This document shows positions 22,279 to 29,532 of a stretch of 64,000 bases of DNA, piece after piece. A program made the translations under genes and the position numbers. The notes below the pieces were generated by a model that was not told the DNA's origin, did not search any database, and was given only the letters and a program-made list of their open reading frames with translations. The DNA is from Chryseobacterium gleum (GTDB taxonomy: Bacteria > Bacteroidota > Bacteroidia > Flavobacteriales > Weeksellaceae): the NCBI RefSeq assembly GCF_900636535.1, contig NZ_LR134289.1, positions 620,001 to 684,000 of the forward strand. The letters are read 5' to 3'. How positions within the stretch are numbered: the stretch's first letter is position 1; the number at the start of each line of letters is the position of its first letter.

Positions 22279-23226
22279 ATGAAAAATATATTTTTAACCG
22301 GTGTTTTTCTGCTGGTGGCTCAATTTTACTTTTCACAATCTTTCGATAAGCAGGCTCACCGCGGAGGAAAATCTCTTTTTCCGGAAAATACAATCCCGGC
22401 CATGAAAAATGCTTTACAAATGAATGTGACTACATTGGAAATGGATCTGGCCATCACAAAAGACAAGAAGGTAATACTTTCCCATGATGCGTTTCTTTCA
22501 CCGGAACTGGTTACAAAACCGGATGGAACTTATATTCCCAAAGATTCAGGTTTTTATTACAAAATTTATGAAATGCCTTATGCGAAGATTAAAACCTTTG
22601 ATGTAGGCTTAAAAAAGCTTGACAGATATCCTGATCAAAAGAAAATGAAGGCTCAGAAACCTCTTTTTTCAGACGTAATAGATGCCTGTGAAGCATACGC
22701 CCGTGAATTGAAAAGACCGTTACCTTATTATAATATAGAAACAAAAACGCGTCCTTTCTCAGACAATATATTTCATCCGGAGCCTAGAGAATTTGTTGAT
22801 CTGATGATGAAGATTATTGTTGAAAAGAAAATACAGGATAGAGTAATTATCCAGTCTTTTGATCCCCGAACGCTGGAAATAATTCATAAAGAATATCCTG
22901 AAATCAAGACTGCTTTGCTTGTAGAAATGGTAGATGATAAAAAACGGACTCAGCAGCAGGCTTATTTTAAAAATATTCCTCTGGAAAAATTTAAGATGTA
23001 TCCCGATCATCTGAATGGAGTAGCAGGAGATATGAAATTCCTGAGTTTTACTCCTACGATTTACAGCCCTGAACATACTCTTGTAACAGCACAATTGATA
23101 AAGGAATGTCATGCATTGGGTATGAAAGTAATCCCATGGACCGTAAATACCAGAGAAAGATTAAAAGAACTAAAAGATATGGGGATAGATGGCGTTATCA
23201 GTGACGATCCCAGAATATTTGAATAA
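22279..23226 (+). CDS. Exported glycerophosphodiester phosphodiesterase family protein
   Basis: A 315-residue protein with a signal peptide (1-20, ending YFSQ), so probably periplasmic. GDPD hallmarks: QAHRGGKSLFPENTIPA (catalytic His27), the metal-binding LEMDLAITKD with SHD after it, and the end motif VIPWTVNTRERLKELKDMGIDGVISDDP. Family members hydrolyse deacylated phospholipids to glycerol 3-phosphate and an alcohol. It is transcribed alone; the GC-rich hairpin after it is shared with the convergent beta-barrel gene array. Confidence 0.9.
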   Translation: MKNIFLTGVFLLVAQFYFSQSFDKQAHRGGKSLFPENTIPAMKNALQMNVTTLEMDLAITKDKKVILSHDAFLSPELVTKPDGTYIPKDSGFYYKIYEMPYAKIKTFDVGLKKLDRYPDQKKMKAQKPLFSDVIDACEAYARELKRPLPYYNIETKTRPFSDNIFHPEPREFVDLMMKIIVEKKIQDRVIIQSFDPRTLEIIHKEYPEIKTALLVEMVDDKKRTQQQAYFKNIPLEKFKMYPDHLNGVAGDMKFLSFTPTIYSPEHTLVTAQLIKECHALGMKVIPWTVNTRERLKELKDMGIDGVISDDPRIFE

Positions 23227-23248
23227 ATATCAGATTTTGCTACAATAT

Positions 23249-23279
23249 AAATCGCCGGAAGAATTTCTTCCGGCGATTT
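23249..23279. terminator. Shared bidirectional terminator
   Basis: Perfect 15-base arms AAATCGCCGGAAGAA (23249-23263) and TTCTTCCGGCGATTT (23265-23279) between the convergent GDPD gene (+) and the first beta-barrel gene (-). Confidence 0.85.
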
Positions 23280-23326
23280 TATAGGTGCTGGTTAATGCAC
23301 TTAGGGTTAAAAAATTGGTTCTTTAC

Positions 23327-24046
23327 TTAGAATTTATAGTTCAGACCTAACTGGAATACTCTGTTGTTATTTTCAGCTGCCGGTCTGCTCTTATCGATTT
23401 TTGTAAGGCTGTTCACATATCTTGCATTGATACCAATGTTCGGCGTGATATCATATCCTAAACCAAGACCTAATCCGAAATTGAATCTGTTGATCTGATC
23501 TTTGTCAATATCTGTAGAGTGAGAACTTGTAGTAGTGGTTGTAACACCTCCTGTAGTGCTTGCTACAGTTGATTCTCCTTTATTTTTCCCGTTGATGAAA
23601 TAACTGAATTCAGGTCCTGCTTCAATATAAAAATTATCTACAGGTCTCATTTGAACCATTAACGGAACTGAGATATAGTTCATTTTTACTCTGTCCTCAA
23701 CTCTAGTCTTCACATTCGTAACTCCATTATCAGTTTCTGTAGATGAAATCACATCTTTTGCTCCCATTTGATTGTATAATACCTCTGGCTGGAAGCTGAA
23801 TTGTCTTGAAATTGGAATATTAACGAATGCACCAGCGTGGAAACCTAATTGCTGAGAGTTGATCCCGAATTTCTGCTTGCTGAAGTAAGATGAGTTTCCT
23901 CCTGCTTTAATACCGAATCTAACCGGTTGAACATCTTTTTTTAGTGGCGATGCTGTTACTGTATTGGTCTCTGTTTTTGTTTCTGTTTCCTGAGCAAAAG
24001 CTAATACACCAGCAGTTAATGCTAATCCTAAAAATAACTTCTTCAT
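23327..24046 (-). CDS. Outer-membrane beta-barrel protein (PorT-like family), array member 1
   Basis: A 239-residue protein with signal peptide MKKLFLGLALTAGVLAFAQ. The mature part follows the family pattern: RFGIKAGGNSSYF, a GFHAGAFVNIPISRQFSFQPEV segment, ISVPLMVQMRP, IEAGPEFSYF, FGLGLGLGYDITPNIGINARY and a C-terminal LGLNYKF with the terminal Phe typical of barrels. Start set at ATG 24044-24046, where the signal peptide begins, although the frame is open to 24187. Last of four tandem paralogues on the minus strand. A perfect sigma-54-like site lies about 50 bases upstream. Ligand or partner unknown. Confidence 0.88.
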   Translation of the reverse strand: MKKLFLGLALTAGVLAFAQETETKTETNTVTASPLKKDVQPVRFGIKAGGNSSYFSKQKFGINSQQLGFHAGAFVNIPISRQFSFQPEVLYNQMGAKDVISSTETDNGVTNVKTRVEDRVKMNYISVPLMVQMRPVDNFYIEAGPEFSYFINGKNKGESTVASTTGGVTTTTTSSHSTDIDKDQINRFNFGLGLGLGYDITPNIGINARYVNSLTKIDKSRPAAENNNRVFQLGLNYKF

Positions 24047-24108
24047 AATTTTATTTTTTAATTTTACTATTTGTGTGTCGATCATTTCAATCAGACCCGA
24101 ATTATTTT

Positions 24109-24124
24109 GCAAATTGCTTGCCAA
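24109..24124 (-). promoter_or_regulatory. Sigma-54-like promoter of array member 1
   Basis: On the minus strand TTGGCAAGCAATTTGC has GG and GC separated by exactly 10 bases, as in the -24/-12 consensus TGGCAC-N5-TTGC. Predicted start near 24097, giving a 5' leader of about 50 bases. Confidence 0.65.
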
Positions 24125-24354
24125 AGTTGAAAAAGGTCTGTTTATAAGGGTTTGGGAGCGGTTTTTTAAAAGATTTTTTTTAACCATTTATCCCTTTTTA
24201 TTGAATAAATGTACTGCTATACCCGTTATGTATGAAAAGAGTTTAATGTAAAAAATACTTTATTGCTGATCAACGAAATAATGAAAAATTAAAAAAATGA
24301 GAGTGTTTTTACACAAATAAAGAGGTATTTTGGATTGTTTTTTAAGCCGGACAT

Positions 24355-24381
24355 AAAAAATACCGGACTTTGTGCCCGGCA
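24355..24381 (-). terminator. Terminator of array member 2
   Basis: On the minus strand TGCCGG and CCGGTA pair across a short loop and are followed by a T run; it lies 24 bases beyond the stop. Confidence 0.65.
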
Positions 24382-24404
24382 TGCGTTTTTGAAAATTAAT
24401 ATCT

Positions 24405-25112
24405 CTATTTAAATTGATAAGCAACTCCAACCTGGAGTACATTATTTCTTACCTTATTATTATAATAATCATGCTTAAAAATGTCTGTGATACCTGCTGT
24501 AAATCTGGCTGTTACACCAAAGTTCCGGGTAAAATAATATCCTGCACCCATTCCTATCCCAAAATTGAATCTATTGTAAAGGTCCATTGAGATTTTATTG
24601 GAAAAGCTTTCATTATAAATGCTTACCGTACCATTGTAAGTATTTTGAGCTCTTTGGTCTCCTTCAACTTTTCCGCCCAGAAGAAGCCCGAATTCCGGTC
24701 CTGCTTCTACATAAAGCTGAGGAAGGATATGATATTGAACCATTACAGGCAGAACAAGGTAGTTCAGATTGGTCTTATAATTAAATTCCTGTATTATCAA
24801 CTGATTGCCCAAGGCAGATCCATAGGTATATTTCCCTTCTGTTTTTGAGCCCATTTGGCTAAAAAGAAGTTCCGGCTGTACACTGAATTTTTCTGCAACA
24901 GGAATATTGACAAATACGCCGATATAGGAGCCAAGCTTTAACTTTTGGTTATTGTCAGCATTATCAGCTTTACCAGTGCTAAGTGTAGAGGCATTGAATC
25001 CTGCTTTAACACCAAATGTGACGGGAGATTTTGAAGAAACTGACTGTTGTTTTTCCTGAGCGTTCAATAAAAGTGATCCGGCCAATGCCAGTCCTGAAAA
25101 TACCTTTTTCAT
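24405..25112 (-). CDS. Outer-membrane beta-barrel protein (PorT-like family), array member 2
   Basis: A 235-residue paralogue of member 1: signal peptide MKKVFSGLALAGSLLLNAQ, then VTFGVKAGFNASTL, GVFVNIPVAEKFSVQPEL, YLVLPVMVQYHI, YVEAGPEFGLLLGG, a variable loop near residue 155, FGIGMGAGYYFTRNFGVTARF and the ending VGVAYQFK. Start set at ATG 25110-25112; the frame is open to 25184 but the longer start would precede the signal peptide. It has its own sigma-54-like site and terminator, so it is a separate unit rather than part of a polycistron. Confidence 0.88.
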   Translation of the reverse strand: MKKVFSGLALAGSLLLNAQEKQQSVSSKSPVTFGVKAGFNASTLSTGKADNADNNQKLKLGSYIGVFVNIPVAEKFSVQPELLFSQMGSKTEGKYTYGSALGNQLIIQEFNYKTNLNYLVLPVMVQYHILPQLYVEAGPEFGLLLGGKVEGDQRAQNTYNGTVSIYNESFSNKISMDLYNRFNFGIGMGAGYYFTRNFGVTARFTAGITDIFKHDYYNNKVRNNVLQVGVAYQFK

Positions 25113-25139
25113 GATTAAAGTTTTAAACCGATTAATGCA

Positions 25140-25155
25140 GCAAAATATCTGCCAT
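25140..25155 (-). promoter_or_regulatory. Sigma-54-like promoter of array member 2
   Basis: On the minus strand the element TATGGCAGATATTTTGC has GG and GC spaced by 10 bases (-24/-12). It sits 28 bases upstream of the ATG. Confidence 0.6.
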
Positions 25156-25190
25156 AAAAGAGAAAAGTAATATAAATCGCACAATAAGCG

Positions 25191-25226
25191 AAAAAGTCAG
25201 GCTTAAACTAATAAACCTGACTTTTT
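25191..25226 (-). terminator. Terminator ending the candidate small RNA
   Basis: Arms AAAAAGTCAGG (25191-25201) and CCTGACTTTTT (25216-25226), 14-base loop. Located 35 bases upstream of the member 2 promoter, with no gene stop nearby. Confidence 0.75.
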
Positions 25227-25433
25227 CTATTGAAATCAAAATGTATTTTCATTGTTGAGCAAAATACTTTTCAGTATTCTGTTGTTTCGGACAAACCGAT
25301 GCAGTTCTCGTTAAAAGTTTATGGTAATAGTTAGGTTTCAGTTTTATATCCAGTTGAATTAAAATAAATGAATTACGCTTACTTATTGTATAACAGGAAC
25401 TGTAAGTTGGAATTCCGGATTAGGGTACAATCA
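25191..25433 (-). ncRNA. Candidate sigma-54-dependent small RNA in the beta-barrel array
   Basis: Between members 2 and 3 a perfect sigma-54-like promoter (25445-25460) is followed not by a gene but by about 240 bases with no frame longer than 14 codons from an ATG, ending in a strong terminator hairpin (25191-25226: AAAAAGTCAGG/CCTGACTTTTT). The predicted transcript contains two more hairpins: AATACT-GAAA-AGTATT at 25263-25278 and TCGG-TTTGT-CCGA at 25287-25299. Member 3 has its own terminator just upstream, so this is an independent unit. It could be a regulatory RNA acting on the neighbouring barrel mRNAs, or the promoter and terminator left by a lost paralogue. The start point is estimated from the -12 box. 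Confidence 0.5.
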
Positions 25434-25444
25434 GTACTCAATAC

Positions 25445-25460
25445 GCAAATTTCTTGCCAA
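25445..25460 (-). promoter_or_regulatory. Orphan sigma-54-like promoter
   Basis: On the minus strand TTGGCAAGAAATTTGC has the GG-N10-GC arrangement and is nearly identical to the member 1 site. No coding gene follows for more than 300 bases. Confidence 0.6.
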
Positions 25461-25477
25461 AATCATTTCTAAACAAA

Positions 25478-25504
25478 AAAGCCGGATTTATTAAATCCGG
25501 CTTT
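25478..25504 (-). terminator. Terminator of array member 3
   Basis: Arms AAAGCCGGATTTA (25478-25490) and TAAATCCGGCTTT (25492-25504), with a T run on the minus-strand side, 21 bases past the stop. Confidence 0.85.
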
Positions 25505-25524
25505 GTATTGACATAAGTTTTTTA

Positions 25525-26118
25525 TTAGAATTTATAAGCTAAACCAAACTGGAATACTCCGTTTTTAGCTTTATCTTCAGATAGATCAGGTCTGTTTTTA
25601 GCAACATCTGTTAAACCAGCAACATATCTTGCTGTAACGCCGATATTCTGTGTGAAATAATAGCCTGCGCCAAGACCAATTCCGAAGTCAAAACCTTTAA
25701 ATAAGTCTTTAGCATCTGCAGAATTAGAACCAGATTTAAGTTTTGAATTAATCAAAAAGCTGAACTGAGGTCCTGCTTCTAAATATAAGTTAGGCAGAGC
25801 ATTATATTGAAGCATTAATGGTACGGAAATATAATCTAAATTTACTTTAAGATCATTAGCACCTTTAATTTTTGCTCCCATTCCGCTGTACAATACTTCC
25901 GGTTGGAAAGAGAAGTCCTGCGCTACTGGAATATTAGCAAATACTCCTCCGTAAAATCCTGCTTTAGAATTGAAATCGTTTTCAGTAAGAGTTGAAATAT
26001 TAAGACCTGCTTTTAATCCAAATCTAACGGGAGAAGTTGAAGCAGCAGAAGCTGAAGTTTTCTGAGAGAATGCGAAAGTTCCTGCTACTAATGCAAGACC
26101 TAAAAAAATCTTTTTCAT
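25525..26118 (-). CDS. Outer-membrane beta-barrel protein (PorT-like family), array member 3
   Basis: The shortest paralogue, 197 residues. Signal peptide MKKIFLGLALVAGTFAFSQ, then VRFGLKAGLNISTL, GFYGGVFANIPVAQDFSFQPEV, ISVPLMLQYNALPNLYLEAGP, FDFGIGLGAGYYFTQNIGVTARY and the terminal LAYKF. Loops between strands are shorter than in members 1, 2 and 4. Flanked by its own promoter-like element (with an imperfect -12 box) and its own terminator. Confidence 0.88.
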   Translation of the reverse strand: MKKIFLGLALVAGTFAFSQKTSASAASTSPVRFGLKAGLNISTLTENDFNSKAGFYGGVFANIPVAQDFSFQPEVLYSGMGAKIKGANDLKVNLDYISVPLMLQYNALPNLYLEAGPQFSFLINSKLKSGSNSADAKDLFKGFDFGIGLGAGYYFTQNIGVTARYVAGLTDVAKNRPDLSEDKAKNGVFQFGLAYKF

Positions 26119-26167
26119 AAGTTTTTATTTAATAGTTTTTAAGTTTTATTTAACATTTCTTTAACTA

Positions 26168-26184
26168 ACAAATCTTATGCCAAA
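26168..26184 (-). promoter_or_regulatory. Sigma-54-like element upstream of array member 3
   Basis: On the minus strand TTTGGCATAAGATTTGT has GG at -24 but GT in place of GC at -12, at the right spacing. Weaker than the sites of members 1 and 2 but in the same position, about 50 bases before the ATG. Confidence 0.45.
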
Positions 26185-26212
26185 GTGAACAAGCTGTTAA
26201 TCATACATAAAA

Positions 26213-26241
26213 AAAGACCAGATTAAAATAATCTGATCTTT
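26213..26241 (-). terminator. Terminator of array member 4
   Basis: Arms AAAGACCAGATT (26213-26224) and AATCTGATCTTT (26230-26241), paired with one G-U on the minus-strand RNA, 37 bases past the stop. Confidence 0.7.
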
Positions 26242-26277
26242 CTATTGAATATAAAATTTGTTATTGAATATATAAGC

Positions 26278-26925
26278 TTATTTGAATTTATAAGCTAATC
26301 CTACCTGGAATACATTGTTTCTTACTGCATCACCAGAGTTGTTTTTATAAATATCAGTAAGACCTGCAGTATATCTTGCTGTAATTCCTAAATTAGGAAT
26401 GAAGTAATATCCTGCACCAATACCGATACCGAAGTTGAAAGTTTGGAAGTCATCTTTGTTAAGAGTTGCAACCTGAGTATTGTTGCTATTGTTTGTTGAG
26501 CTCTTTAACTTATCTTTAGCGCTTACAAGGAAACCGAATTCAGGTCCTGCTTCAAGGAAGAATTCAGGTGTAGCATTATACTGAAACATTACTGGTACAG
26601 CAACATACCCTAAATTTCTTGAATATTCACTTTTATAATTATTTCCAAGTACAGTATATTCTCTTGTTACTTTTGAGCCCAAATCGTTGTAAATTACTTC
26701 CGGTTGTACACTAAAAGAACTCGCTAATGGAATATTAGCAAAAACTCCTGCATTAAAACCAATTTTTGATTTAGAGTCACTTAGATCTGCACCATTAGAT
26801 AATGAAGATACGTTCATTCCTCCTTTTACACCAAATGTTACTGGATTAGAAGATGTATTTCCTGTCTGTTGAGCGAATGCGAATGTTCCTGCAGTTAACG
26901 CTAATCCTAAAATTAACTTTTTCAT
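26278..26925 (-). CDS. Outer-membrane beta-barrel protein (PorT-like family), array member 4
   Basis: A 215-residue paralogue: signal peptide MKKLILGLALTAGTFAFAQ, then VTFGVKGGMNVSSL, GFNAGVFANIPLASSFSVQPEV, VAVPVMFQYNATPEFFLEAGPE, a Lys/Ser/Asn-rich surface loop near 150-165, FGIGIGAGYYFIPNLGITARY and the ending VGLAYKFK. First gene of the array in the direction of transcription. The four proteins share core strands and differ mainly in the predicted surface loops, as expected for duplicated surface proteins under diversification. Confidence 0.88.
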   Translation of the reverse strand: MKKLILGLALTAGTFAFAQQTGNTSSNPVTFGVKGGMNVSSLSNGADLSDSKSKIGFNAGVFANIPLASSFSVQPEVIYNDLGSKVTREYTVLGNNYKSEYSRNLGYVAVPVMFQYNATPEFFLEAGPEFGFLVSAKDKLKSSTNNSNNTQVATLNKDDFQTFNFGIGIGAGYYFIPNLGITARYTAGLTDIYKNNSGDAVRNNVFQVGLAYKFK

Positions 26926-27008
26926 AACTTTAATTTTTTAATTTTACTCTTTCTTAATTTTAAATTTTACTACTTATTCAACATTTTCAGTTGAACGCAG
27001 AGTATCTT

Positions 27009-27024
27009 CCAAATTGCTTGCCAA
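27009..27024 (-). promoter_or_regulatory. Sigma-54-like element upstream of array member 4
   Basis: On the minus strand TTGGCAAGCAATTTGG is identical to the member 1 site except for the last base (GG instead of GC at -12). Located 84 bases before the ATG. Confidence 0.45.
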
Positions 27025-27053
27025 AAAAGTTTTTTATGATTAAAATCAATAAA

Positions 27054-27080
27054 AAAATCACTTAGTGTTTAAGTGATTTT
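27054..27080 (-). terminator. Terminator of aroB
   Basis: Arms AAAATCACTTA (27054-27064) and TAAGTGATTTT (27070-27080) with a T run on the minus strand. Lies about 120 bases after the aroB stop, after the palindrome TTGACAA-TT-TTGTCAA (27148-27163). Confidence 0.7.
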
Positions 27081-27202
27081 ATAATTATTTGATTGATTTA
27101 CAGTGTTCTAAAAACATAAATAAACATTTGTTTAGAAAGTGTCTAAATTGACAATTTTGTCAAAATAACTTTATAAAACCAATTTATTTTTCAGAAAAAC
27201 AG

Positions 27203-28249
27203 TTAAGCATCGTTCAGTTTTCTATAAAAAGCTATTGATTCAATTATGTTTTTCTGGCTGCACTGATGGTCATAGGTACAAGAACCGATTCCTGAAAGCA
27301 GGGAAAAATTGATTTTACTGTCCGTATTCTTTTTATCATTCAGTAATAATGCTGTGATATCTTCATCTTTAAAATCACTGATATCAAGATATGGGTAGTA
27401 TCTCTGGATGTTTTCAATGATCATTTTTGAATCTTCTTCAGAAATAAGGTTTTCAAGAAATGCCAGATGAGCTTCAGCGATCATTCCCATAGCTACAGCT
27501 TCACCATGAAGAATAGGATTTTCCTGCTGTAAACATAGGCTTTCCACAGCATGGCCAATCGTATGTCCGAAATTAAGTGTTTTTCTGATATTCTGCTCAT
27601 GGAAATCCTGATCTACAACATTTTGCTTAATATGCATTGAAGTCTGAATAAGCGGAATTACGGTTTCCACTTCCAGTTTACGGATCTGAATCAGCTGGTC
27701 CCAATGGTTTTTATCGGCAATTAATCCATGCTTCAGCATTTCAGCAAAACCGCTTCTTAATTCTTTAAATGGTAATGTTTCCAGGAATTTAGGCAAAATG
27801 AAAATCTGCTCAGGAAAAGCAAAAGTTCCTACCATATTTTTATAATGCATCAGATCGATCCCCGTTTTTCCTCCTATGGAAGCATCACACATGGATAAAA
27901 GGGTAGTGGGGATATTGATGAACTGAATTCCTCTTTTATAAGTAGATGCAACAAATCCGCCCATATCCGTAATGACACCGCCACCAAGGTTGATAACCAA
28001 TGCCTTCCTGTCTGCTTTCATCTCCGTAAGAATTTCCCAAAGCTGATTGGCTGTCTGGATATTTTTCATTTCCTCTCCGGCCTCAATCTCTAAAATTTCA
28101 AAGCCAAGATCAGTTTCCATATTTCCTAAAAGAACAGGAAGGCAGTATTCATGGGTGTTTTCATCTACAAGAATAAAAATTTTACTGAAAGATCTCTCGT
28201 GAAGAAACTCGTTGAGCTGTGAAAAATTATCGTTTAATATTGTTATCAT
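27203..28249 (-). CDS. aroB: 3-dehydroquinate synthase
   Basis: Second step of the shikimate pathway: DAHP to 3-dehydroquinate, NAD- and metal-dependent. The 348 residues include LGGGVITDMGGFVASTYKRG, IPTTLLSMCDASIGGKTGID and the metal-site histidines in TLNFGHTIGHAVE and HGEAVAMGM. The length is normal. Start ATG 28247-28249. No other aro gene is adjacent. It is transcribed divergently from the pseudouridine synthase gene, with a 101-base shared spacer. Confidence 0.96.
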   Translation of the reverse strand: MITILNDNFSQLNEFLHERSFSKIFILVDENTHEYCLPVLLGNMETDLGFEILEIEAGEEMKNIQTANQLWEILTEMKADRKALVINLGGGVITDMGGFVASTYKRGIQFINIPTTLLSMCDASIGGKTGIDLMHYKNMVGTFAFPEQIFILPKFLETLPFKELRSGFAEMLKHGLIADKNHWDQLIQIRKLEVETVIPLIQTSMHIKQNVVDQDFHEQNIRKTLNFGHTIGHAVESLCLQQENPILHGEAVAMGMIAEAHLAFLENLISEEDSKMIIENIQRYYPYLDISDFKDEDITALLLNDKKNTDSKINFSLLSGIGSCTYDHQCSQKNIIESIAFYRKLNDA

Positions 28250-28328
28250 CTTCTATTGTATGTAAAGTTAAAATGTAAACTATGGTGCAAAGTTATGATT
28301 CTTAATTTTTAACTCGTAACTAAATTAC

Positions 28329-28336
28329 TATCTTTG
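28329..28336 (+). promoter_or_regulatory. -7 box of the pseudouridine synthase gene
   Basis: TATCTTTG fits TAnnTTTG and lies 14 bases before the ATG, predicting a leader of only about 10 bases. No clear -33 TTG at the best distance. Confidence 0.5.
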
Positions 28337-28350
28337 CAGAAATTTTTAGA

Positions 28351-29532
28351 ATGAGCAGAGATAATAATAATTCAGACAGACCAAAGAGACCAAGAATTTC
28401 AACCAAGAAAAGTTCTGATGATTCTCGTGCTTCCAGATCTGGAAATTCTTCAGGATCAAAACCTTTTAAAAAGCCTTTTTCTAAAGACGGAGGAAAAAAA
28501 GGGCCGGAACATAAAGGATCCAACTCAAGATTTGAAAAGAAACCTTTCAAAAGAAATACCGACAGTTTCGAAAATTCCAATGATGATTTTGGTTCAAAAT
28601 CTGAAAGAAAACCTTATATCACGAACAAAAGTGAGAGCTATGAGAAGAAATCTTTTGGAAAACCTAAAAGAGGCGGGAAAAATTTTGATACAAGAGATAA
28701 GTACGAAAGAGGCAGCCTGAAATATGGAAGAAGACCATCTAACGGTGATGAAAGAAATGAAGACAGAGCGAAATCTTTTGTACAGAAAAGAAGACTGAAC
28801 AAAATTGAAAAAGATGTTCATAAAGACAGCATCCGTCTTAACAAGTATATCGCTAATTCCGGGATCTGCAGCAGAAGAGAAGCTGATGAACTGATTACCC
28901 AGGGGCTGGTAGAAGTGAACGGAAAGGTGGTAACTGAAATGGGTTATCAGGTACAGAAAACAGACAGGGTAGTTTTTGACGGACAAAGCATTACGCCTGA
29001 AAAACCTGTATATGTACTTTTGAATAAGCCAAAAGGTTATATTTCCACTACAAAAGACGACAAAGCAAGAAAAACAGTTATGGATCTTGTAGCCAATGCT
29101 TCTCCTTACAGACTTTTCCCGGTTGGAAGACTGGACCGTTCTACAACAGGAGTTATCTTATTGACTAACGACGGGCACATGACGAAAAAACTGACACACC
29201 CATCTTTTGACGCCAAAAAGATTTATCATGTAACATTGGATAAAAAGCTTACCGGTGAAGATTTACGTCTTATAGCAGAAGGTATTCGTCTTGATGAAGG
29301 TGTAGCTGTTGTTGATCAGATTTCTTATATTGAAGGAAAACCAAAGAATGAAGTAGGAATTGAAATACACATCGGATGGAACCGTGTTATCAGAAGAATT
29401 TTCCAAAGATTAGGTTACGAAGTGGAAGCTTTGGACAGAGTGATGTTTGCAGGCTTAACGAAGAAAAACATCAAGAGAGGACATTGGAGAATCCTTACAG
29501 AACTGGAAGTGAACAATCTTAAAATGCTTTAA
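28351..29532 (+). CDS. rRNA pseudouridine synthase (RsuA/RluB/E/F family) with long basic N-terminal tail
   Basis: A 393-residue protein. The first 150 or so residues are low-complexity and rich in Lys, Arg, Ser, Asn and Gly, as seen in many Bacteroidota members, and probably bind RNA. An S4 domain follows (IRLNKYIANSGICSRREADELI), then the catalytic domain with VGRLDRSTTGVILLTND, whose Asp is the catalytic residue, and a C-terminal GWNRVIRRIFQRLGYEVEALDRV. It should convert a uridine of 23S (RluB-like) or 16S rRNA to pseudouridine; which site cannot be told from the sequence. Confidence 0.92.
   Translation: MSRDNNNSDRPKRPRISTKKSSDDSRASRSGNSSGSKPFKKPFSKDGGKKGPEHKGSNSRFEKKPFKRNTDSFENSNDDFGSKSERKPYITNKSESYEKKSFGKPKRGGKNFDTRDKYERGSLKYGRRPSNGDERNEDRAKSFVQKRRLNKIEKDVHKDSIRLNKYIANSGICSRREADELITQGLVEVNGKVVTEMGYQVQKTDRVVFDGQSITPEKPVYVLLNKPKGYISTTKDDKARKTVMDLVANASPYRLFPVGRLDRSTTGVILLTNDGHMTKKLTHPSFDAKKIYHVTLDKKLTGEDLRLIAEGIRLDEGVAVVDQISYIEGKPKNEVGIEIHIGWNRVIRRIFQRLGYEVEALDRVMFAGLTKKNIKRGHWRILTELEVNNLKML

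Follow-up and report, generated by a model that had tools for sequence, protein, structure and literature searches.

The minus strand between positions 25460 and 25190 of the window (the whole 64-kb stretch of Chryseobacterium gleum DNA analysed here) carries a real, conserved unit, which is very likely a small RNA gene derived from the 3' untranslated region (UTR) of an outer-membrane beta-barrel gene. The unit lies between two barrel genes and contains a sigma-54 promoter, hairpins and a terminator, without a usable reading frame. Its product is likely to be a small regulatory RNA, which probably arose when a barrel 3' UTR came to be transcribed alone. As far as it can be read from sequence, the anatomy matches a small RNA gene, with a sigma-54 promoter, 5' hairpins, a conserved box and a terminator, and the form that is attached to a barrel gene in related species is of the 3'-UTR-derived type.

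Promoter and extent of the orphan unit

The sigma-54 promoter of the unit (TTGGCAAGAAATTTGC; 25445..25460, minus strand) was recognised by pattern search and by conserved letters in its spacer. The predicted non-coding transcript occupies 25190..25433 on the same strand; its start is placed about 12 bases past the GC element and its end at the terminator. The exact pattern TGGCA-N6-TTGC has three sites in the window, all on the minus strand of the barrel array (24123-24109, 25154-25140 and 25459-25445); with two mismatches, 182 sites were found against 183 expected, which is the chance level. Over the whole genome, TTGGCA-N5-TTTGC gave 4 sites, 2 of them in the barrel array, and the reversed control gave 3, so there is no enrichment from the genome count alone. 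Motif counts of this kind prove little, and the case for the promoter therefore rests on conservation. Among 66 units, four of the six letters left free by the search pattern are identical in every unit and two are variable, and the final GC is kept in 61, the other five ending in GT or GA. The GG-N10-GC promoter at 25445-25460 that an earlier note had proposed from the letters of this stretch was thus borne out.

The genome has one copy of rpoN and, among 11 domain hits, five strong sigma-54 activators. Two of the features expected of a sigma-54-controlled small RNA gene are present: a GG-N10-GC element at the right distance from a predicted non-coding transcript, in a genome with sigma-54 and its activators. 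The ORF list of the window holds no frame of at least 80 aa overlapping 25190-25445, in agreement with the roughly 240 bases described earlier as having no usable frame.

The barrel gene array

The surrounding array, recognised in the same note as one of four outer-membrane protein genes, consists of four PF13568 beta-barrel genes, all on the minus strand. The first after aroB encodes 215 aa (26278..26925); the gene upstream of the orphan unit encodes 197 aa (25525..26118) and shares its family with the barrel standing before the box in species with the attached state; the gene downstream encodes 235 aa (24405..25112); and the fourth encodes 239 aa, counted from an MKK start (23327..24046). 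The gene order aroB, barrels, purF is constant in the arrays that were mapped. A sigma-54-like site, absent from the earlier note, precedes each of the four barrel genes; two of these sites (26182 and 27023) carry one mismatch, and that of the downstream barrel (25140..25154, minus strand) is an exact TGGCA-N6-TTGC. The downstream barrel has a recognisable sigma-54 promoter in 30 loci, and in 13 of these a TGAT-N4-ATCA dyad, which may be an activator site, lies no more than 60 bases before it (the region corresponding to 25155-25190), a count across loci that does not give the state of the window itself.

Inspection of the sequence also revealed a related box (ATTTTATATTCAATAG) and a terminator in the 3' UTR of the first barrel gene (26211..26262, minus strand), still attached to the gene. 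A second RNA of the same kind, in the attached form, may exist at this position. A box or related box was found behind the first barrel in 32 of the 45 loci where that gene could be placed.

Fold of the predicted RNA

The predicted RNA folds at -53.8 kcal/mol (z -5.07), and none of 200 shuffled sequences folded as well. From its 5' end, the minus-strand unit shows a conserved block (TGATTGTAC; 25425..25433), predicted to pair with a downstream TACAAT block in close relatives; a conserved middle block (AACTATTACCAT ... TTTTAACG; 25309..25332), observed in the 18 aligned sequences of the window's subclade; and a predicted hairpin with a GAAA loop at about 25260..25281. The hairpins described earlier are thus present, but the GAAA tetraloop to which attention had been drawn is not a constant feature, since the loop letters vary among relatives.

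The 3' part contains the box AATACATTTTGATTTCAATAG (25227..25247, minus strand), a candidate seed or protein site with the core TTGATTTCAATA at 25239-25228, followed by an intrinsic terminator (25190..25227, minus strand) with a stem of 15-16 bp and compensatory changes across species. In the window, this terminator forms 16 pairs (25227-25190); 7 terminator-like sites were counted in about 4 kb, against 1.8 expected. The strong terminator of the earlier description is therefore confirmed. A short conserved seed-like stretch beside a terminator is a mark of small RNAs derived from 3' UTRs and is found here, the box being the putative seed. The predicted accessibility of the box core is only moderate. 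In long units it was 0.54 against 0.41 elsewhere and higher in 35 of 45 units; in short units it was 0.50 against 0.51 and exceeded the rest in 8 of 21. For the window's own unit, most of the first half of the core is predicted to be paired.

Two states of the unit in the genus

When 148 genomes of the genus were searched with the stretch, 103 of them had a match. Eighteen relatives match over most of the stretch at 74-79% identity, and many others match at the 3' end only, with higher identity. The 90 loci examined are the window's own locus and 89 from other genomes among those with a match. Stand-alone units were found at 68 of the 90 (46 long and 22 short); in these, 60-262 bases separate a sigma-54 site from the box and terminator that follow it, with no barrel stop codon between. 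In the other 22, the same box and terminator form the 3' UTR of a beta-barrel gene, the box match starting about 0-22 bases past the stop codon. A position at the 3' end of a coding message, with the terminator in common, is therefore a property of these 22 related loci and not of the window. In ten attached loci that were printed, a barrel of 184-198 aa is followed by the box; the promoter pattern precedes seven of these, and a changed form, recognised by eye, precedes three. The state script classified 88 of the 90 loci; the remaining two, L065 and L074, both with box and promoter and no barrel stop between them, were entered manually as long orphans. Counts of conservation, fold, promoter and accessibility refer to 66 units, with L007 and L056 left out; both have box and promoter and failed the terminator pattern.

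As the loci had been found by similarity to the stretch, retention was checked on the PurF marker. Full-length PurF with 97% or more identity to that of the window was present in 43 genomes, the window's own among them; all of these have long orphans, and the unit is kept in dozens of Chryseobacterium-type species.

Conservation of the box, the terminator and the 5' part

Among 45 long units, the mean pairwise identity of the box 21-mer is 95% and that of the linker 55%, compared with 66% at PurF fourfold sites in 42 genomes. Among 21 short units, the values are 84% for the box and 60% for the linker, with 63% at PurF fourfold sites in 20 genomes. The 12-base core is exact in 64 of the 66 units. 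Box identity among the loci is biased upward, because they were found by similarity to the stretch.

In 78 distinct sequences of the terminator stem, 99.2% of the cells are paired, and 47 double-sided changes were counted against 14.2 in shuffles, which keep the relatedness among the sequences uncorrected. None of 500 shuffles scored as high on any of five measures, and the stem stood far above slid versions of itself. The comparison with Chryseobacterium genomes that had been proposed in the earlier note yielded a covarying terminator stem.

Folded alone, without box and terminator, the 5' part reaches a mean z of -2.3 across the 45 long units (below -1 in 36) and of -2.0 across the 21 short ones (below -1 in 18). 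In the printed folds of short units, a common hairpin can be seen by eye, in which the inner stem changes letters and pairing is kept; RNAalifold called no 5' hairpin on the gapped short-unit alignment. On 18 of the 45 long units, which were those taken into the alignment, it found only 3 compensated pairs outside the terminator.

No clear remnant of barrel coding sequence was detected when 184 barrel proteins were compared with 66 linkers by tblastn without a positive control; the best E was 0.004 per query, and the eight best hits were scattered. Decayed barrel-coding sequence lacking structural conservation, the outcome named earlier as contrary to a small RNA, was not what the linkers and the compensating stem presented. 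Conservation, covariation and phylogeny together give good support to the non-coding unit described earlier, driven by sigma-54 and closed by a terminator, with the transcript itself being a prediction.

Origin of the unit

With four other genera as the root of the PurF tree, the attached state comes out as basal, and one clade of 70 rows (100/99) takes in every one of the 64 free rows. Of the 22 attached rows, 19 lie outside this clade and three (G114, G008 and G072) lie inside it. With these three inside, one gain, two gains or a reversal are all possible. Within the clade, the 43 long-free rows make up a clade of their own (100/99) and the 21 short-free rows a group (91/92); these two and a small clade containing the three attached rows branch in unresolved order. 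The long units form one clade (100/99). Two state changes suffice on the rooted tree, and a single origin of the free state was not rejected on the tree without outgroup (p-AU 0.30).

The PurF trees cover 90 of the 148 genomes. G063 and G119, with broken PurF, were left out, as were G056, G068, G053 and G079. In G063 and G119, PurF has in-frame stops or is split in two, which likely reflects sequence errors or decay. States were set by hand to free for G054, G111, G128, G065 and G098, all five with an altered last promoter letter, and for G104 and G030; four rows have no state. Four of eight outgroup genomes were used; no frame was found in L360 and L362, and L363 (internal stop) and L364 (60% identity) were dropped. 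The rooted tree has long outgroup branches, as the tool warned.

In a barrel tree made from 26 of 61 arrays, the barrel upstream of long orphans (25525-26118 in the window) and those lying before the box in attached species form a single family (SH-aLRT 99), and none of seven short-orphan arrays holds a member of this family. A basal attached state, with all free rows in one clade, implies that the unit likely began as the 3' UTR of a barrel gene and later acquired transcription of its own. From the barrel tree, the box of the long clade probably either came from a duplicate of the 25525-26118-family gene, the coding part of which was lost, or acquired an own promoter, the choice between the two being an inference. 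In the short group, the coding part is gone. The array at L196 (G082) contains two barrels of this family (about 195 aa), possibly a trace of the duplication from which the long orphan came. The more specific statement, that within one genus the tail of a barrel message came loose from its mRNA and became a sigma-54-driven small RNA gene standing alone, with the functional box unchanged and the coding part vanished, seems to us evenly balanced between true and false.

The earlier note had offered a small RNA and the leftover promoter and terminator of a lost paralogue as alternatives. The second fits the likely origin, since the box and terminator are a barrel 3' UTR in 22 of the 90 loci; the unit is retained, however, and not decaying. 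The two proposals are compatible, with the lost paralogue as the likely origin and the small RNA as the likely present function.

Occurrence outside the locus and the genus

A model of the box and terminator (R1) had strong matches in the genus only, with a best value of 6.0e-14 there and of 3.0e-6 outside it (296 genomes, family sample), the latter being a weak match in G204; outside the family, the best was 5.1e-5 (296 genomes, order sample). Within the genus, some members match weakly, and G094 and G097 have no match. A 24-base pattern retrieved 43 stretches from a genome contig collection, all of them from Chryseobacterium records. In Rfam 15, window positions 23000-28500 gave nothing at gathering score and three matches below it, the best with 30.9 bits against 49; six loci likewise gave no family match at gathering score. 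Among the paper titles listed by a literature search, mostly of non-subscription journals and thus weak evidence of absence, none was on a Chryseobacterium small RNA gene or on this element.

A wider role of the box as a genome-wide 3'-UTR motif was considered and rejected: an 11-letter piece of the box has 39 sites against 13 in a reversed control, and among 30 sites viewed two were the array copies. One site (L113, G000:C1:3547817-3547827) shows a box-like piece and a hairpin behind a 492-aa frame. In the same genome, L097, L098, L101 and L110 are copies of another hairpin element, a dispersed repeat that opens with the same 11 letters.

Possible function and targets

In the proposed mechanism, a sigma-54 activator would turn on both the RNA and the barrel genes, these too having sigma-54-like sites. 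The active piece may be the 3' part of about 60 nt, made of box and terminator, in which the box would work in trans through short duplexes with messages from other parts of the genome, in the manner of GlnZ-type RNAs derived from 3' UTRs. In species with an attached box, cleavage of the barrel message would release the same RNA. Trans base pairing by the box is taken as the most likely role, in preference to those of a decoy or a DNA enhancer.

Porin-controlling small RNAs of the MicF/MicC type pair with barrel mRNAs near the start, and a parallel to them had been suggested for the unit, together with a check of pairing with the barrel leaders. By raw duplex energy, the downstream barrel in the window ranks 2, 3, 3 and 6 of 60 leaders. 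These promising ranks were not sustained: against shuffled controls, duplexes with the downstream barrel start gave mean z of 0.41, 0.87 and -0.14 in 27 genomes (27 of 43 loci), near or above zero, and showed no signal of pairing with this message. The other three barrels, compared in the window only, ranked 15 to 57 of 60 leaders, the fourth being taken from the start of the longer ORF and not from the MKK start. The analogy with porin control is so far unsupported.

Conserved seed targets were also sought and rejected. The 13-letter box complement with at most one mismatch has 118 genome sites against 40 in the reversed control, and among 30 viewed most lie in coding frames. One site with one mismatch lies 20 bases before a start codon (L267). 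Before ATG, the box complement occurs at 12 sites in five of six genomes; nine are inside frames of at least 60 aa that code for one short peptide motif, and none is a conserved gene start.

This outcome of the duplex searches (27 genomes) and box-complement searches agrees with a decoy or sponge RNA, which would have its box in common with barrel 3' UTRs and bind the same protein or small RNA, its level altering the fate of barrel messages. The boxes behind the first barrel in 32 of 45 loci, including that of the 26278-26925 gene in the window, point in the same direction; in 16 of those 32 loci, however, the box reads TATATTCAATA or TATATTTAATA and not TGATTTCAATA, and the binding partner is only putative in this system, so that a decoy seems possible but doubtful. 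The unit may instead matter as DNA, with the box as a site for the sigma-54 activator serving the next barrel promoter and the transcript as a by-product. The core TTGATTTCAA is a near dyad, and this reading has real support in a constant spacing: of 31 orphans examined, 22 have a next sigma-54 promoter, and in 21 of these it lies 82-85 bases from the box, near eight helical turns, which a pure RNA role does not need; the TGAT-N4-ATCA dyad lies between the box and this promoter in its 13 of 30 loci. Nevertheless, the spacing is 135 to 364 in 14 of the attached loci, and for the other 8 of the 22 attached boxes the pattern detects no sigma-54 barrel promoter downstream; six of these boxes adjoin a convergent purF. 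A DNA element would also leave the conserved orphan promoter, the compensating terminator stem and the folded 5' part unexplained, and it is regarded as unlikely.

That the unit is a dead remnant, in which a barrel gene has been deleted and its promoter and terminator still linger, would suit its likely origin from a barrel unit. Such a remnant would hardly keep its box above the level of PurF fourfold sites, compensate its terminator stem and persist in 43 of 43 near genomes, and the linkers show no clear barrel coding; this reading is very improbable. The idea that the unit encodes a short peptide comes from a 14-codon ATG frame at 25252-25208, seen by eye in the window, which spans the box. 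It is scarcely credible and was rejected: the ATG is missing from 16 of 17 aligned relatives, an in-frame ATG occurring only in L020, one codon further up, and the linker length varies freely. Base pairing in trans by the box of a conserved small RNA stays the preferred reading.

Comparison with known small RNAs

GlmY and GlmZ are sigma-54-controlled small RNAs of proteobacteria; like the orphan unit, they and NrsZ are stand-alone small RNA genes with a sigma-54 promoter, and we know of no barrel-gene origin for any of them. Their sequences were compared through Rfam only, with no match at gathering score. NrsZ is described as an RpoN-dependent small RNA of proteobacteria (PMC9731577). In the same source, GlnZ appears as an RpoN-dependent small RNA of enterobacteria that derives from the 3' UTR of glnA and is cut from an intact coding message (PMC9731577). 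As described there (PMC9731577), GlnZ resembles the orphan unit in its link to sigma-54, its conserved seed (for which the box is the candidate here) and its Rho-independent terminator at the end of the message. In contrast to GlnZ, nothing between promoter and box is coding in 68 of the 90 Chryseobacterium loci.

MalH and MicX are reported to occupy one genomic location and to be a 3'-UTR-derived RNA in one bacterium and an RNA with its own promoter in the other (PMC9438474). Attached and own-promoter forms at one location are likewise found here. The MalH and MicX pair, however, spans E. coli and V. cholerae and, in the account given of it (PMC9438474), has no known target in common, whereas both states of the present unit occur in one genus with the same box.

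Rfp18 of Flavobacterium psychrophilum is described as a conserved small RNA with a strong fold, required for protease messages to be normal (PMC9723704). The orphan unit is similar as a conserved RNA of flavobacteria with a strong fold, predicted in the present case. This comparison was made by description: the account of Rfp18 drawn on here (PMC9723704) states no sigma-54 or 3'-UTR origin, and R1 matches outside the family reach a strength of 5.1e-5 at most in 296 order-sample genomes.

Implications for small RNA evolution

With attached and free forms in one genus and in the same neighbourhood of aroB, barrels and purF, the step between them becomes testable in pairs of culturable environmental species. 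The origin of small RNA genes has mostly been argued from distant comparisons. If the present reading is true, Bacteroidota would have a sigma-54-controlled small RNA tied to outer-membrane genes, and the emergence of such a gene out of a 3' UTR would be open to direct observation, as a regulatory 3' UTR that outlived its protein.
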